A DNA stretch of 39,834 bases from a virus. Below the pieces are notes generated by a model. That model worked only from the letters and a program-made list of their open reading frames with translations, ran no database searches and was not told where the DNA came from. The stretch's first letter is position 1. The number at the start of each line of letters is the position of its first letter. The position numbers and the translations under genes were made by a program. Where the stretch lies: positions 1 through 39,834 of IMG/VR virus record IMGVR_UViG_3300042691_031744; one strand, given 5' to 3'. Shown here one piece after another: positions 3,907 through 39,834 of this stretch.

Positions 3907-4092
3907 ATGAGCAACCATGAAGCAATCAAAACAGCATTCGAAACATACATCGCCGAAAATGACAAGTTCACAGGCAAAGGCGTTAAAGCATCTGCGGCAA
4001 GAGCTAGAAAAGCTCTTCAAGAAATGTCCAAAGCCATCAAAGAGCGACGCAAAGAAATCACAGCAGAAAAAGAAGCCTTGGCCGCCAAGTAA
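3907..4092 (+). CDS. histone-H1-like (Hc1-type) small basic protein
   Basis: This 61-aa, Lys/Ala-rich helical protein has the segment KASAARARKALQEM followed by KERRKEITAEKEAL. The layout resembles the conserved N-terminal helix of chlamydial histone-like Hc1 proteins, which bind DNA and compact the nucleoid. It has its own consensus promoter and AAGGA 6 nt before the ATG. A role in binding phage or host DNA is plausible but unproven. Its TAA overlaps the next ATG by one base. Confidence 0.55.
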   Translation: MSNHEAIKTAFETYIAENDKFTGKGVKASAARARKALQEMSKAIKERRKEITAEKEALAAK

Positions 4093-7019: not shown

Positions 7020-7418
7020 ATGGCGTTTCATCTTGAAGGTCCTTGGTTAAGCACTACCGGCAAACAGCGTGGACCACGCAAATGGGCCAGTGCCGAAGCC
7101 AAACGTCGTGCCGAACTCTTGCGAGAAGAATGGGAACAACGCCTGGGCACGTTCAAAAAAATGGCCCCCAAGTTTAGTAGAACTCCTACACCGCCGCCCA
7201 AGCCCAAAGGTACCCTGACCGTGACCATGCGTGTGCCACCCGGACGTGAAACTCCGCGGATCGAAAGCCGCGATACCGGATGGGTGGCCTGTGTAAAACA
7301 CCAAGATCAAGAATACACTGGTACCAAGGTCAAAGGCATTGGCACCATGCACAAGTCAAATGCTGTGCCAATCTTTAGCGACGACGAAGCCAGGGATATA
7401 AGTAAAATGAGAAGATAA
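7020..7418 (+). CDS. conserved-type phage protein, unknown function
   Basis: This 132-aa basic protein has AGGAG before its ATG. The N-terminal half is charged and helical, followed by a Pro-rich linker (about residues 55-68). The ending KVKGIGTMHKSNAVPIFSD plus a DI..MRR tail is a C-terminal block I associate with many aquatic phages. The function of that block is unknown. Expression is from the promoter at 6965. Confidence 0.75.
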   Translation: MAFHLEGPWLSTTGKQRGPRKWASAEAKRRAELLREEWEQRLGTFKKMAPKFSRTPTPPPKPKGTLTVTMRVPPGRETPRIESRDTGWVACVKHQDQEYTGTKVKGIGTMHKSNAVPIFSDDEARDISKMRR

Positions 7419-7424
7419 ACACTC

Positions 7425-8090
7425 ATGTCAAGTCAACCTAATATCAATGATCCTGGTATTGCGGTAATTTTAAATGCATGGTCAGAACTGGATCAAGACA
7501 TACAACAAAAATGCTTTGATACCACACTAGAAGTCATTGATTCTATTCCTGGTATAACCACAATACTGTTAGCCAGCGTTCATGTCACGCTTGATCAACA
7601 AAATCAAGGCATCAATTGTTGGTACGACAATGCCAAAAAAATATTCGTAGACGAACAAGGAGTAGACTGGGTTCGAAGATATTGGAATGTCTCAAGAGAT
7701 CCAGGATTTGCCACACATAATCCCAAGATACGAGATCATGATTATCAAGGCAAACTGTGTGTGGCCATTTGGGAACAATGGGAGCTAGAATATCTTTTGA
7801 ACCATTGTCTTACTCAAGAAAAAAATATTTGGTACTTTGGATCTGGGCTAGGAGTCAGAAGAGATCCCATGGGCTGGGGACAACTGTGTGATCTCATACG
7901 CTACAAGCATGTGCGACCCATGAATATATTGACCCACTCTCAAGGCATTACTTTTAACACTAGGTCACAACCTGATTTTCGGCAGGCCAAATTTACCTGG
8001 GTACCGTGGGATCAAACTGATTGGAAACATATTGGCAACGACATTTATCAAAAAATCAGTTTAGATTGGCAGATACCTCCCTGGGAATAG
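7425..8090 (+). CDS. unknown protein, AT-rich accessory gene
   Basis: This 221-aa protein is rich in Trp, Asp and Gln. It contains alternating strands and helices (TTILLASVHVTL, KLCVAIWEQWELEYLL, NIWYFGSGLGVRRDPMGWG), suggesting an alpha/beta fold. No active-site motif recognised. It sits between the promoter at 6965 and an SGNH hydrolase gene that follows after 4 nt, so it is probably co-transcribed with that enzyme and may act on the same substrate. Confidence 0.6.
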   Translation: MSSQPNINDPGIAVILNAWSELDQDIQQKCFDTTLEVIDSIPGITTILLASVHVTLDQQNQGINCWYDNAKKIFVDEQGVDWVRRYWNVSRDPGFATHNPKIRDHDYQGKLCVAIWEQWELEYLLNHCLTQEKNIWYFGSGLGVRRDPMGWGQLCDLIRYKHVRPMNILTHSQGITFNTRSQPDFRQAKFTWVPWDQTDWKHIGNDIYQKISLDWQIPPWE

Positions 8091-8094
8091 TAAC

Positions 8095-8814
8095 ATGGCC
8101 AATATTTTGATCTGCGGGGACAGTTGGGGTTGTGGTGAGTGGGATGTCGCTTGCACCAAAGTCACCCACACAGGATTGGAGCAATATCTTGTGGATGACA
8201 GACACACAGTATTCAACATCAGCAAAGGCGGCACTTCAAATTTGGACAGCAGTAACAGGATAAACCTATGGTTCGAAAGGTTTGGCAGTCAGCACATAGA
8301 CACTGTGTTGGTATTTCAAACCGATTATGTAAGAGACCTCAAGCACAACACCTATCCAGAGGATTGGAACACACAGGTTTTATCCGGTGTTGCCGAACGA
8401 TGGGTAGAAAGATTTTATCATAGACTGTCTGAATTATCACAAAAACATGACTGCAAGATCAAGATTATTGGTGGACTTGCTGACACAGTTTGGTTTGATC
8501 AAATGTCTATAGATTATCCTGGATGCGAAATTGCTTGTCAGAGCTTGGTTAATTTGGTGCTGGCCAATAATCATCGTGTTGATGTTCCGGTATTCAGTTG
8601 GTACGGTTCTGACTCAGAACCAATTTTAGCCCGTGCCAAAAGTCTGGGATTAGAACTTGATTGCACATTGAAACTAATGCATCTGGGACTTGAACGTGAA
8701 TCTCTAATCCGCGAGAATCCTGGATTTTTTTATCCAGATGGCACACATCCAAATCGTCGGGCATATCATATTTTGTATGAATTTCTGCGGCACAAAAGTA
8801 TTATACCAAATTAA
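8095..8814 (+). CDS. SGNH/GDSL-type hydrolase
   Basis: This 239-aa protein has the block I motif CGDSWGCGEW (Ser10), a block II-like Gly (KGGTSN) and the block V dyad in PDGTHPNRRAY (Asp and His). The superfamily contains esterases and acetylhydrolases that remove O-acyl groups from sugars, polysaccharides or lipids. No signal peptide, so it acts in the cytoplasm or as part of the virion. A second SGNH hydrolase is at 24,270. Surface-glycan or capsule deacetylation is a reasonable but unproven role. Confidence 0.75.
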   Translation: MANILICGDSWGCGEWDVACTKVTHTGLEQYLVDDRHTVFNISKGGTSNLDSSNRINLWFERFGSQHIDTVLVFQTDYVRDLKHNTYPEDWNTQVLSGVAERWVERFYHRLSELSQKHDCKIKIIGGLADTVWFDQMSIDYPGCEIACQSLVNLVLANNHRVDVPVFSWYGSDSEPILARAKSLGLELDCTLKLMHLGLERESLIRENPGFFYPDGTHPNRRAYHILYEFLRHKSIIPN

Positions 8815-8863
8815 AATTCCTATAAGTAAATGATGCAAAAATATTCAAGGACACAATCTTAAT

Positions 8864-9082
8864 TTGGCCAAAGAAGATACCATAAAAATGGAAGGTGTTA
8901 TAGAAGAAGTTTTACCCAACACCACCTATAGAGTAAAGATTGAATCATTCGACAAGCCTGTGTTGGCCAGCCTAAATGGTCGTATGCGCATGAACAACAT
9001 CAAAGTTCTTGCTGGAGACACAGTAGAATTAGAGTTTAGTCCATATGATCTCACTCGCGGACGTATAACACGCCGCAGATAA
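8864..9082 (+). CDS. infA: translation initiation factor IF-1
   Basis: This 72-aa protein has the length and S1-type OB fold of bacterial IF-1. Diagnostic stretches are MAKEDTIKMEG, EVLPNTTYRV, NGRMRMNNIKVLAGDTV and SPYDLTRGRI. The start is TTG at 8864, with AAGGA 12 nt upstream. Relative to the bacterial consensus, the loop after strand 3 is changed (ESFDKPVLASLNG in place of ENGHxxxAHxSG). IF-1 binds the ribosomal A site on the 30S subunit and works with IF-2 and IF-3. A phage copy implies retuning of initiation. The TAA stop forms part of the late promoter for the next gene. Confidence 0.9.
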   Translation: MAKEDTIKMEGVIEEVLPNTTYRVKIESFDKPVLASLNGRMRMNNIKVLAGDTVELEFSPYDLTRGRITRRR

Positions 9083-9085
9083 ATA
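9078..9085 (+). promoter_or_regulatory. T4-late-type promoter, leaderless arrangement
   Basis: GATAAATA matches the T4 late core TATAAATA at seven of eight positions. By T4 spacing (core at -13 to -6) the transcript starts at 9091, the A of the SOD ATG. The IF-1 stop TAA (9080-9082) is inside it. Confidence 0.65.
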
Positions 9086-9090
9086 TCCTT

Positions 9091-9645
9091 ATGCAACACG
9101 AAATCCGCCAAAATCTAGACCTGCTAGAAGCTTCAACTCGTCCAGCCAAGCTGGAGACCACGCCTTTGCCCTATGGCGAAGGTGATCTTGATCCAGTGCT
9201 CAGCAAGGACAGCATCAATTATCACTATGAGCACCTGGCCAAAGGCTATGCCAAACGCTACAACGCCGGAGAAGGCAACGCCAATTTTAATCGCGCCGGC
9301 AGTTTCTTGCACAACAAGTTTTTTCCACAATTACGACCGCCCAAGGGTGCCAATCGTCCTCGTGGTGCTGTGCTGGAGCTTATAGAAACAAACTTCAAAA
9401 CCTATGAAGATTTCAAACAGGCTTTCAAAGAAACAGCCATGAAAATCCAAGGTTCAGGCTGGATTTATTTGAGCACAGCAGGAACCATCAAGACCATACC
9501 AAATCATCAGGTACGAACAGATATTTGCGTGTTGGTAGACTGGTGGGAACATGTCTGGGCCACAGACTACCAATGGGACAAAGAACGCTACTTGGACAAC
9601 ATTTGGAAAATTATAGATTGGGATGTTTGCAACCAAAGATTATGA
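9091..9645 (+). CDS. Fe/Mn superoxide dismutase
   Basis: This 184-aa protein has the SOD_Fe_N and SOD_Fe_C domains and all four expected metal ligands: His45 (NYHYEHL), His74 (FLHNKFF), Asp150 and His154 (LVDWWEH). GSGWIYLST and the [11 protein letters not shown] signature are intact, so it should be active. The family converts superoxide to oxygen and peroxide. Whether it takes iron or manganese cannot be read here. No signal peptide, so it acts in the host cytoplasm. The stop overlaps the Fe-S carrier gene by four bases, and both follow a late-type promoter. That fits protection of Fe-S clusters during virion production. Confidence 0.88.
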
Positions 9646-9968
9646 TAACAGTAACTGAACAAGCAGTGGCAAAACTCCGAGACATATTGGCTGAGGAAAA
9701 TAACCCAAGTTTAAAACTCAGAGTTTTTGTGCAAGGTGGCGGGTGTAGTGGAATGCAGTACGGTTTTACCCTGGACGAAACCCAAAACGAAGACGACTGG
9801 GATCTAGAAGTTTCTGGAGTCAAAGTTCTAGTAGATTCTATGAGCGGCGGTTACTTGCAGGGTGCTGAAATCGACTACAAAGAAGATCAGTACGGCGCCG
9901 CATTTAGCATCAAGAACCCTTCTGCACAAACCACCTGTGGTTGCGGAAGCAGTTTCAGCCCGGTCTAA
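9642..9968 (+). CDS. A-type Fe-S cluster carrier (ErpA/IscA/HesB family)
   Basis: This 108-aa protein has the three family cysteines: Cys35 in [11 protein letters not shown], and Cys99 and Cys101 in [10 protein letters not shown] chose the ATG at 9642 (ATGA overlap with the SOD stop); upstream in-frame codons overlap SOD and are not homologous to the family. ErpA/IscA proteins accept clusters from the scaffold and deliver them to apo-enzymes. The CGCGSSFS end favours ErpA. Pairing with SOD suggests maintenance of Fe-S enzymes under oxidative stress. Confidence 0.88.
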
Positions 9969-23111: not shown

Positions 23112-23119
23112 CATAAATA
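23112..23119 (+). promoter_or_regulatory. T4-late-type promoter, leaderless arrangement
   Basis: CATAAATA with exactly five bases to the ATG at 23,125. The expected start is the A of that ATG. It lies in the 126-bp divergent gap between phoH and 23,125, where I see nothing else. Confidence 0.62.
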
Positions 23120-23124
23120 ATCGT

Positions 23125-23709
23125 ATGAGCAAAACCATTGATCAAGCCATATTCAAAGACGGTAGCGACTACTGGCAAGTGGCCGAGAACATCCGCGATA
23201 TCTATCTCAGCGAAGGCAGCTTGCTGACCTTGCTGGACTTTGAAAGGGTATTGGACGAGCTGGATTTGTATGCTTTTAAAAACTGGCAAATTGGCGAACT
23301 GGTAAGTGGACCTAGCATTGGCAAATATCGTGTGACTTGTATTTTTATGTGGCCTGAAAAACTCATGCCCGATCCACGTGGTGCCCGTAGATTATTGCCG
23401 TTTGACTGTGAAATCAAATTCAAAAAAACCGCTATGAAAGTGCCCATGAAAATCTCTAATCCCGACGATTTTCGTCCGGGCACACACAAGGCAAGATTAA
23501 TTGAAAAGAAAATTTGGCTGGTATCCATAACCATGCCCAAGAGCCTTATGAGCGACATCCGAACAGGCTCGGTAGAACTAGAAGATCAAGATATTGATTT
23601 AGCAGACCTAGATGATGCCTACGAGCAGGATCTAGACAAAGACAGTTATCAAAATCAACAACAGGCAGAAAATGCACAACAAACACTCCAACAGCCAGCC
23701 CCTTTATGA
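23125..23709 (+). CDS. unknown, probable virion-associated protein
   Basis: This 194-aa protein is mixed alpha/beta in residues 1-150 with a Gln/Asp-rich disordered tail. Segments such as WQIGELVSGPSIGKYRVTCIFMW do not match a family I know. Late-type leaderless promoter; overlaps the next gene by 38 nt. Late timing suggests a structural or assembly role. Confidence 0.6.
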   Translation: MSKTIDQAIFKDGSDYWQVAENIRDIYLSEGSLLTLLDFERVLDELDLYAFKNWQIGELVSGPSIGKYRVTCIFMWPEKLMPDPRGARRLLPFDCEIKFKKTAMKVPMKISNPDDFRPGTHKARLIEKKIWLVSITMPKSLMSDIRTGSVELEDQDIDLADLDDAYEQDLDKDSYQNQQQAENAQQTLQQPAPL

Positions 23710-25779: not shown

Positions 25780-26751
25780 ATGAAAAACATATTAGCTGCA
25801 TTATTGCTGGTGCCGGTCATGGCCTGGGCACAATGGGCACCCAACAAGCCTGTCAACACCACCGTTGGATTTGCTCCTGGGAGTGGAAACGAAATAAGTT
25901 TTCGCAAGGCCAGTGAAATAGTAAGCAAACAAAACCCTGGTGTTTCATTTACAGTAGAAACCCGACCCGGTGCTGATGCCGCTGTGGCAAGCAACAGTTT
26001 TATGTCAGCACCCAGCGATGGGTTACACCTGATGGTGCCCAGCCATATGAGCCTGTTTGTGACCAATGATATCTGGCAACGGGACATCAAACGTTTTGAA
26101 TACAACAGTTTCAAGCCTGCTGTGACCCTGGGCAAAAGCCCCTTGGTCTTGGTAGCGTCTAGCAAAAGCACCGTGAACACTCCGCAGGAATTTGTCAAAT
26201 ACATCACCAACGGACGTGCTGTAAACATTGCTGTGGGCGGCGGCGCACACAGAATGGCCTATGAATACATTATTAGTCGCACCAAGGCCGACGCCAAATT
26301 AATACAACACGTGGCTTTCAACGGTCCACTACCGGCTGTGACATCGGTGGCCAGCTATGACGGCAAGACCGGCACAGAATTTGGTATTATGCCTGTGGCC
26401 ATAGCCAGACCCTTGATCGAAGCTGGCAAGGTCAAACCCATTGGACTCACTGGAGGTCCCAAATTAAAAGCATTGCCCACTGTGCCCTTGCTCAGCGACA
26501 CTATTCCTGGGTTAAAAGTTTACGCAGGATGGATAGTTGTGCTACCTCCGCAAACCCCTAATACCATCGTGGACTGGTATGTGGACAAGTTTTCCCGAGC
26601 CATACTATCAAAAGAATATCAGGACTGGGCTGAACAGAACTATATAATTATAGACCGTGATGAACTTAATCCACGAGGTGTCATGACCTATGCCGAAGAA
26701 TTACGCACAGCATTTGCACCCATAGCACGAAACATTAAAGTAGAGAAATAA
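25780..26751 (+). CDS. Bug/TctC-family periplasmic solute-binding protein
   Basis: This 323-aa protein has a clear Sec signal peptide (MKNILAALLLVPVMAWA, cleavage before QWAP). It keeps the family landmarks: VGFAPGSGNEI (binding loop 1, usually PFxPGGxxD), PGADAAVASNSFMSAPSDG, NIAVGGGAHR, and the GKVKPIGLTG, P.L.TVP.LSDT.PG sequence. Bug proteins capture carboxylates or other small organic molecules in the periplasm for TTT transporters. The genes are greatly expanded in betaproteobacteria. AAGGATC precedes the ATG. Without transporter subunits nearby it may supply a host TctAB system or bind a different ligand. Phage carriage is unusual. Confidence 0.85.
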   Translation: MKNILAALLLVPVMAWAQWAPNKPVNTTVGFAPGSGNEISFRKASEIVSKQNPGVSFTVETRPGADAAVASNSFMSAPSDGLHLMVPSHMSLFVTNDIWQRDIKRFEYNSFKPAVTLGKSPLVLVASSKSTVNTPQEFVKYITNGRAVNIAVGGGAHRMAYEYIISRTKADAKLIQHVAFNGPLPAVTSVASYDGKTGTEFGIMPVAIARPLIEAGKVKPIGLTGGPKLKALPTVPLLSDTIPGLKVYAGWIVVLPPQTPNTIVDWYVDKFSRAILSKEYQDWAEQNYIIIDRDELNPRGVMTYAEELRTAFAPIARNIKVEK

Positions 26752-28698: not shown

Positions 28699-29277
28699 AT
28701 GCCGCAACCGCAGTGTCATGTGATTGCACATGAGTCGTCAAGAGTCATAGGTGACTGTGTACAAAGTTTAACACAACATGGATGGCGTTATAAAATATTT
28801 CCTGCAGTGGATGGTAGAACCGTAACAGCTCAAGATTGGCACCGCACAGGTGTGACCATGAGCCAAGAAGGAAAGATGACACGTCGTCCTGGCGCTCAAG
28901 GTTGCTGGCTGAGTCATTTTGCCCTGTGGCAACAGTGTGCGGATAGCAACGAGCCTGTGGTGATTCTTGAACATGATGCCTTGGTCACAGCGCCATGGCC
29001 TGAAGATTTGAACATAGACAACCAACTGTTAAAATTATTCAGTACAGCAGAATGCAAGGTCAATCCTGCGTTTGGTCTTTGGAGCAAAGGCGCTCATGCT
29101 TATACAGTAACACCTGCCCAAGCACACACTCTTATCACGGATGCGCAACAGCGTGGCGCCCAGGCCGTGGACAAGCACCTGGGCACACAGGTCCTGCCCT
29201 GGACTTTTTACCACCGTGATTTGGTTCTGCTAAACCCTGCTCGTGGACCATCCAGCACAAGTCCGCTGAGAAAGTAA
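28699..29277 (+). CDS. GT25-type glycosyltransferase
   Basis: I use the ATG at 28,699, behind AAAGGAAC; the frame continues upstream only through Rz1 sequence. The 192-aa protein has the LPS-type family 25 landmarks: HVIAHESSRVIGD with KIFPAVDGRTV, GCWLSHFALWQ and VVILEHDALV (the DxD-like acidic pair). C-terminal GLWSKGAHAYTVTPAQA fits the acceptor part. Such enzymes add galactose or another sugar to LPS cores. It may remodel host surface or virion sugars. The stop is part of the next late-type promoter. Confidence 0.78.
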   Translation: MPQPQCHVIAHESSRVIGDCVQSLTQHGWRYKIFPAVDGRTVTAQDWHRTGVTMSQEGKMTRRPGAQGCWLSHFALWQQCADSNEPVVILEHDALVTAPWPEDLNIDNQLLKLFSTAECKVNPAFGLWSKGAHAYTVTPAQAHTLITDAQQRGAQAVDKHLGTQVLPWTFYHRDLVLLNPARGPSSTSPLRK

Positions 29278-29280
29278 ATA
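29273..29280 (+). promoter_or_regulatory. T4-late-type promoter over a stop codon, leaderless arrangement
   Basis: AGTAAATA contains the GT25 stop TAA (29,275-29,277). The ATG at 29,286 is five bases after it, at predicted +1. Confidence 0.65.
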
Positions 29281-29285
29281 CTGTT

Positions 29286-29690
29286 ATGAAACGAATTGTC
29301 CTTGCACTTTCCACAGCGTTGTTGAGCAGTTGTGCCCTTTGGGATGCCTACATGATGGCACCCTATGATGCCAACGAGTACATGCAGATTACAGAAATCC
29401 GTGCTTCAGCTGGACAATATAGAAAGCAGTGCGACAATCCTATACTGGCACCAGCCAATGCTCAAGCCATAGCAAACAAGACTGATCTGTTTGAAAAATA
29501 TGAGGAATTGATTCCCAGAAACGCCAATGGCTACAATGCGGCACGGGCCTTGAATGAAATCACACAAGGACTCAATACAGCCTATGCCAAAGGCGTTGTT
29601 AGTCCGACATTCTGTAGATTAAAATACAACAACATAGAACACAGTTCTGAACTCATACAGCGTGTCACAGCAGGAAGACCCAGACGATGA
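29286..29690 (+). CDS. small lipoprotein of unknown function
   Basis: This 134-aa protein starts with MKRIVLALSTALLSSC, a signal with lipobox LSSC (Cys16). The mature domain is helical with two further Cys residues (QCDN, FCRL) that could form a disulfide. No family recognised. It heads the 29,286-31,721 operon under a leaderless late-type promoter and overlaps the next gene by four bases. Confidence 0.65.
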   Translation: MKRIVLALSTALLSSCALWDAYMMAPYDANEYMQITEIRASAGQYRKQCDNPILAPANAQAIANKTDLFEKYEELIPRNANGYNAARALNEITQGLNTAYAKGVVSPTFCRLKYNNIEHSSELIQRVTAGRPRR

Positions 29691-39112: not shown

Positions 39113-39120
39113 GGTAAATA
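39113..39120 (+). promoter_or_regulatory. T4-late-type promoter, leaderless arrangement
   Basis: GGTAAATA with five bases to the ATG at 39,126, which coincides with the predicted start. Confidence 0.62.
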
Positions 39121-39125
39121 CACTC

Positions 39126-39834
39126 ATGAACATCCATGAGTTAGATTCCTACGATTTAGGCGATGCAGTCAAGTTCAACGATAAACTAAATCCACGTATC
39201 TGGGGCGCAGATGAAAAAATGCGCCCCGAAGTGCGTGAACAGTTGTTGCGAGTTGCCGACGATTTCCGCGAATTCCTGGGCATAGATGTTGAAGTCAAAG
39301 ACATCACTGTGTCAGGATCCAATGCGGCATATACCTACACCCCACATTCAGACATCGATTTACATCTGGTGGTAGACTTGCCGGAAGCTGATCGAAACGA
39401 AGTTTATCGCGAATTGTTTGATGCCAAGAAGTATGTCTACAACGAACAGCATGACATCAAAATTGGTGGCTATGATGTGGAGCTCTACGTACAGGACGCA
39501 AACAAAACTCATCACAGTCAAGGCATATACTCTTTGACCAATGACGATTGGGTAAGTGTTCCTAAAAGACGTCAGCCTGACGTGGATGACATCAGCGTAA
39601 AAAGCAAGTTTGAAGATCTCGGCCATCGTATTGAAAGTGCAATCAAAAGCCAGGATTATGAAAAGATTTCAGCCATGGCCGACAAAATCAAAGATTACCG
39701 TCAGGCTGGACTGGATGCACACGGTGAGTTTGGTCCGGAGAATCTTGCTTTCAAGATTCTGCGCACACAGGGCCTAATCAAAAGATTGTATGATGCTCGC
39801 AACGCAGCCAAAGACGAATTATTGAGTCTAGACG
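39126..39834 (+). CDS. minimal nucleotidyltransferase, 3' partial
   Basis: At least 236 codons are open to the window edge. Motif VSGSNAAYTYT followed by HSDIDLHLVVD gives the GS-x10-DxD signature (Gly64, Ser65, Asp76, Asp78) of the polymerase-beta-like nucleotidyltransferase superfamily (MNT, kanamycin and CCA-type enzymes). A later acidic residue in DVELYVQ could be the third metal ligand. Helical region follows. Such genes occur in T4-like aquatic phages; the substrate is unknown. Confidence 0.72.
   Translation, partial: MNIHELDSYDLGDAVKFNDKLNPRIWGADEKMRPEVREQLLRVADDFREFLGIDVEVKDITVSGSNAAYTYTPHSDIDLHLVVDLPEADRNEVYRELFDAKKYVYNEQHDIKIGGYDVELYVQDANKTHHSQGIYSLTNDDWVSVPKRRQPDVDDISVKSKFEDLGHRIESAIKSQDYEKISAMADKIKDYRQAGLDAHGEFGPENLAFKILRTQGLIKRLYDARNAAKDELLSLD

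Follow-up and report, generated by a model that had tools for sequence, protein, structure and literature searches.

A phage-borne IF-1 with an unusual start site in a freshwater phage family, and leaderless-type late genes as a likely separate trait

The E. coli gene for IF-3, infC, begins with AUU and is autoregulated. Phage versions of IF1 and IF3 have been described for huge phages by Al-Shayeb et al. 2020 (PMC7162821), where IF1 belongs to a set of genes presumed to redirect translation in the host; leaderless genes did not turn up in a term search of their text. The late box of phage T4 spans 8 bp and begins at -13 (PMC2988020), and in T4 late promoters a TATAAATA-type box precedes the transcription start by roughly one helical turn, as it would in the phage group described here. 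We detected a phage-borne IF-1, as in the huge phages, in a family of freshwater phages, where it differs from the huge-phage IF1 in being a clade-wide gene beside superoxide dismutase (SOD) and ErpA-type genes and in having an unusual start. The window, meaning the whole 39,834-base virus contig that was analysed, carries one IF-1 (Table 1) and is probably a fragment. We consider it likely that this gene encodes a bona fide IF-1 serving general host initiation, that a weak start limits how much of it is made, and that leaderless genes are a separate trait of these phages.

Table 1. Positions of the IF-1 gene, its neighbours and the leaderless-type starts in the window.
Feature	Positions	Strand	Remarks
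Conserved upstream neighbour, function not assigned	7020..7418	+	AUG + SD start in 59% of contexts, in contrast to IF-1
AAGGA, Shine-Dalgarno-like	8847..8851	+	12 nt before TTG of IF-1
IF-1 gene (infA-like)	8864..9082	+	72 aa, TTG start
Late-promoter-type box GATAAATA	9078..9085	+	overlaps IF-1 stop codon, 5 nt before SOD ATG
Fe/Mn superoxide dismutase (SOD)	9091..9645	+	Pfam Sod_Fe_C 72 bits, Sod_Fe_N 24.6 bits; predicted leaderless transcript
IscA/ErpA-type iron-sulphur assembly protein	9642..9968	+	Pfam Fe-S_biosyn 71.9 bits
TAAATA-N5-ATG	23114..23127	+	leaderless-type start of gene at 23125
TAAATA-N5-ATG	29275..29288	+	leaderless-type start of gene at 29286
TAAATA-N5-ATG	39115..39128	+	leaderless-type start of gene at 39126

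The sequence-only reading had described a full-length IF-1 with an altered loop, and both features were confirmed. Pfam eIF-1a matches the protein at 69.2 bits (cut-off 30.2) over profile positions 1-64 of 64, phrog_30201, a family without assigned function, matches it at 83 bits, and all 12 of its best PDB matches are bacterial IF-1. An AlphaFold model built from an alignment (mean pLDDT 88) forms a single OB-fold domain as in solved IF-1. Its superposition with ribosome-bound E. coli IF1 (30S complex, 9fco_I) gives a TM score of 0.92 and an rmsd of 1.0 A, the two sequences being 49% identical. Bacterial IF-1 (infA, Pfam PF01176; PDB 9fco for E. coli and 1hr0 for Thermus) and phage IF-1 have length, OB fold and conserved basic residues in common, and the phage protein retains R23, R41, R66 and R70. 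The phage loop ESFDKPVLASLNG is one residue longer than that of E. coli or Thermus IF-1; the extra residue, in the turn after residue 28, is found in most family members though not all (locus L081 is without it). Compared with the E. coli protein, Y44N, R46K and F69R are changes specific to the family, Y44N and F69R being family-wide, and a basic C-terminal end, RR(R/K), further distinguishes the phage protein from bacterial IF-1.

These three substitutions and the longer loop could change ribosome binding. Y44N, F69R and the loop would also suit an altered IF-1 that acts as an inhibitor or modifier, displacing host IF-1 and shutting off host translation, yet the IF-1 core is otherwise retained, as are the four arginines named above, and the model fits ribosome-bound IF1 closely, so we regard such a role as quite improbable. 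Sequence family, predicted fold, purifying selection and conserved position all support a working IF-1, which we predict would bind the host 30S A site and take part in initiation during infection.

IF-1 beside SOD is near-universal in this freshwater phage family, whose genomes are roughly 300-360 kb, and the group of IF-1, SOD and, next after SOD, the ErpA-type gene is conserved in relatives. A scan with IF-1 as the query returned 80 viral loci (57-99% identity) with the gene order of the window, SOD and the ErpA-type gene following IF-1 in nearly all of them, sometimes with inserts. With SOD and the small gene at 3907 as queries, neither of which selects for IF-1, we found IF-1 adjoining SOD in 121 of 123 SOD-bearing loci, the remaining two being cut off near the relevant contig edge; all 121 newly fetched IF-1 loci also carry SOD. 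Nineteen more loci had a 3907-type gene with neither SOD nor IF-1, every one of them on a partial contig. Exactly one IF-1 per record was present in 13 records, and an intact copy was found in all seven large contigs obtained with queries other than IF-1, large contigs, which reach 364 kb, having one intact IF-1 each. In two relatives (G027:128574-128684 and G033:34557-34667) an additional, broken piece of IF-1 that contains a stop codon lies some 1.8 kb away from the intact copy. Upstream, the two genes at 7425-8814, between the 7020 gene and IF-1, are common to few relatives and are therefore probably an insertion in the lineage of the window. A 378-aa protein at 5832-6968 matches phrog_25854, which has no assigned function (E 1.4e-13), and few relatives have it there.

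Across 204 loci with 121 distinct IF-1 proteins, the median pairwise dN/dS was 0.15, and closer pairs gave 0.08. Such ratios indicate that purifying selection acts on phage IF-1, which is kept as a functional protein. Among the bacterial sequences returned, none exceeded 61% identity to the phage family, and the freshwater phage proteins are separate from bacterial IF-1s in a tree whose support is limited, as the alignment has only 73 columns and the bacterial row L524 is badly placed. Judged by the bacterial sequences returned and by this tree, recent capture from a host is ruled out, and the results indicate that phage IF-1 is an old phage lineage. The IF-1 of Sinorhizobium phage Phosso lies next to the bacterial side of the tree, and those of Lak and DAC phages lie within that side, so these look like separate acquisitions. 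Some records labelled as phage that carry IF-1, such as Acinetobacter phage MD-2021a, look bacterial, which might suggest that IF-1 is inconsequential cargo or bacterial contamination; for those annotated matches we accept contamination. For the freshwater family, however, about 120 loci show the gene in a conserved setting of phage genes, dN/dS is low and there is no close bacterial relative, which rules out contamination and makes either form of this explanation highly improbable. In a record named as a phage (L137, hits H19 and H20), IF-1 lies among the housekeeping genes leuB, leuC, leuD and truA, and this is host DNA.

The arrangement downstream of IF-1 had been proposed to include a leaderless SOD gene in a genome with many such genes. 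The first of these proposals was borne out as a prediction, with a late-type box whose TAAATA (9080-9085) shares bases with the stop codon of IF-1 and is separated by 5 nt from the ATG of SOD. In 102 of 108 distinct contexts the SOD start follows a TAA[AG]TA box at a distance of 3-8 nt. A T4 box of 8 bp starting at -13 ends at -6, so that five intervening bases would put the transcription start on the A of the ATG; by this geometry the promoter is placed for transcription to start at the AUG of SOD and of other genes. The window has four TAAATA-N5-ATG layouts against 0.43 expected from shuffles, a number reached in one of 100 shuffles. The claim of many leaderless genes held in relatives, where a sharp peak was found at spacings of 4-5 nt, with the qualification that in the window itself the late box is placed in this way for only four of some 55 genes. 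At box spacings of 4-5 nt we counted 19, 26 and 28 ORFs of at least 60 aa in the relatives G001, G005 and G009, respectively, over a background of about one per spacing. All three also show a second hump of boxes 17-28 nt before ATG, which leaves room for a Shine-Dalgarno (SD) motif.

In T4 and the other controls most boxes stand 17-29 nt ahead of AUG and an SD often lies in the gap, whereas the phage group has in addition a class at 4-5 nt that hardly ever has an SD. The leaderless class is therefore real at the promoter level, and from the promoter geometry we infer the layout of its transcripts. A gp55-type late sigma gene, a feature shared with T4, was found in G001, G005, G026 and G035; it was not detected in G009, G037 and G038, which makes the late-promoter interpretation more indirect for those genomes. 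We also observed TATAAT 5-6 nt before ATG in G001, G005 and G009 (loci L082-L130), several with a TTGAC -35 element, and an early, sigma70-type class may thus have leaderless members too. In these phages, dozens of genes appear to be expressed as leaderless messages from a T4-type late promoter.

The earlier suggestion that IF-1 biases host ribosomes towards these messages did not survive comparison among relatives. In its favour, a review reports that leaderless mRNA translation in vitro is stimulated by IF1 and IF2 and inhibited by high-level IF3 (PMC9031893), the clade is rich in leaderless-type genes, the adjoining SOD among them, and no phage IF-3 was found as a partner in the records of 12 relatives. 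However, among relatives supplied by a clamp-loader scan (clamp loaders 73-77% identical to that of the window), IF-1 was not detectable in the possibly incomplete contigs G035 (300 kb), G037 (203 kb) and G038 (195 kb), and leaderless-type starts were about as dense without IF-1 (46 in 694 kb, or 6.6 per 100 kb) as with it (102 in 1380 kb, or 7.4 per 100 kb); G036, which nearly duplicates a part of G035, was left out of the counts. The interval from the 7020-type gene to SOD is present in full in G035, where other genes occupy it instead of IF-1, and the SOD of G035 still begins with TAAATA-N5-ATG. Conversely, Phosso has IF-1 and only two leaderless-type starts in 400 kb. The 4-5 nt peak is absent in Phosso as well as in PA5oct, Vibrio 2.275, SCTP-2 and T4, the latter four being without IF-1.

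IF-1 and leaderless genes therefore did not go together among relatives: each trait occurs without the other, and the leaderless layout neither needs nor follows IF-1. This comparative result replaces a guessed link and speaks against it, disfavouring IF-1 as a leaderless-specific helper and making a bias towards leaderless messages unlikely, although the reported in vitro stimulation by IF1 means that phage IF-1 might help them as a side effect. Most likely, phage IF-1 would keep or shift general initiation capacity during infection rather than favour leaderless messages, and leaderless-type genes would be an independent feature of the broader phage group, with late boxes placed for transcription to start at the ATG. 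Ribosomal protein bS21 is encoded in eight of the 12 relatives, with and without IF-1 (L003, L004, L027, L063, L081, L348, L388 and L390).

The start site of the IF-1 gene is unusual across the family. Aligned at the first residue, 117 distinct contexts gave 50 TTG, 54 ATG, three GTG, three ATT, one ATC and one ATA start, with the remainder lacking a resolved start. Under one common rule, covering 111 contexts, non-AUG starts occurred in 57 of 111 for IF-1 and in two of 706 for ten other conserved genes (Fisher value 8e-54, which is overstated because the sequences are related). On the SOD protein tree (117 tips) the IF-1 start switched between AUG and non-AUG at least 21 times, so a single inherited event does not account for the pattern. 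An SD-like motif precedes 31 of the TTG contexts, mostly at a spacing of 11-13 nt, and the five ATT, ATC and ATA contexts have a strong SD 5-8 nt upstream with no in-frame ATG, GTG or TTG upstream. A start upstream of the TTG was ruled out for most members, since no such codon precedes it in frame. The AUG contexts have a late box 3-8 nt upstream in 35 cases and a well-placed SD in just one; taken together, the start layouts mean that nearly every IF-1 member avoids the combination of AUG and SD. SOD and the 3364-type gene are likewise without this combination, so avoidance of SD alone is not specific to IF-1, and the non-AUG codon is. The Phosso IF-1 also begins with TTG, as do 11 of 72 resolved starts in the most similar bacterial infA genes (loci L481-L560), which come from several phyla and often have a strong SD; non-AUG starts of any kind account for 13 of these 72, compared with about half of the phage contexts.

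These patterns suggest that a weak IF-1 start is maintained by selection, in what is apparently an initiation-factor gene selected against a normal start site. The layouts are observed in the sequences and lead us to predict an effect on expression: IF-1 output would be held down by a non-canonical start, UUG or rarely AUU, AUC, AUA or GUG, on a leadered message, or alternatively by AUG without SD, often in the leaderless-type late layout, which would also be limiting.

A tentative extension is feedback like that of infC, in which a UUG, AUU, AUC or AUA start would make IF-1 synthesis sensitive to the levels of IF-1 and IF-3, because both factors act against weak starts. Non-AUG codons are singled out in the IF-1 gene, the start codon has switched repeatedly, and TTG recurs in Phosso and bacterial infA; the five AUU, AUC or AUA starts with their SD point the same way, given a review in which IF3 discriminates these codons and IF1 contributes to initiation fidelity, and which cites IF3 repression at an AUU start (PMC4611024). 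The same review treats UUG as canonical for IF3, yet most non-AUG starts here, including that of the window, are UUG, and the discriminated codons occur in five of 111-117 contexts. Moreover, many members use AUG without SD instead, and a simply weak start without feedback explains the data equally well. In the five AUU, AUC or AUA contexts the phage gene resembles infC, a translation factor being encoded there behind a strong SD and a start codon that is discriminated against; it differs from infC in that its factor is IF-1, most of its non-AUG starts are UUG and its feedback is putative. It is doubtful, though conceivable, that the gene senses initiation-factor balance through UUG, AUU, AUC, AUA or a leaderless AUG and so limits its own synthesis, convergently with infC.

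Within the open literature searched, we found nothing linking phage IF-1 with leaderless genes, nor the separation of the two, the clade-wide leaderless late layout or the start-codon pattern, which is not proof of novelty. The leaderless class and the IF-1 start bear on how phages may tune host ribosomes and on odd start codons in translation-factor genes. The window also encodes a TctC/Bug-type solute-binding protein (25780-26751) in a phage setting, which presumably points to a Burkholderiales-like host.
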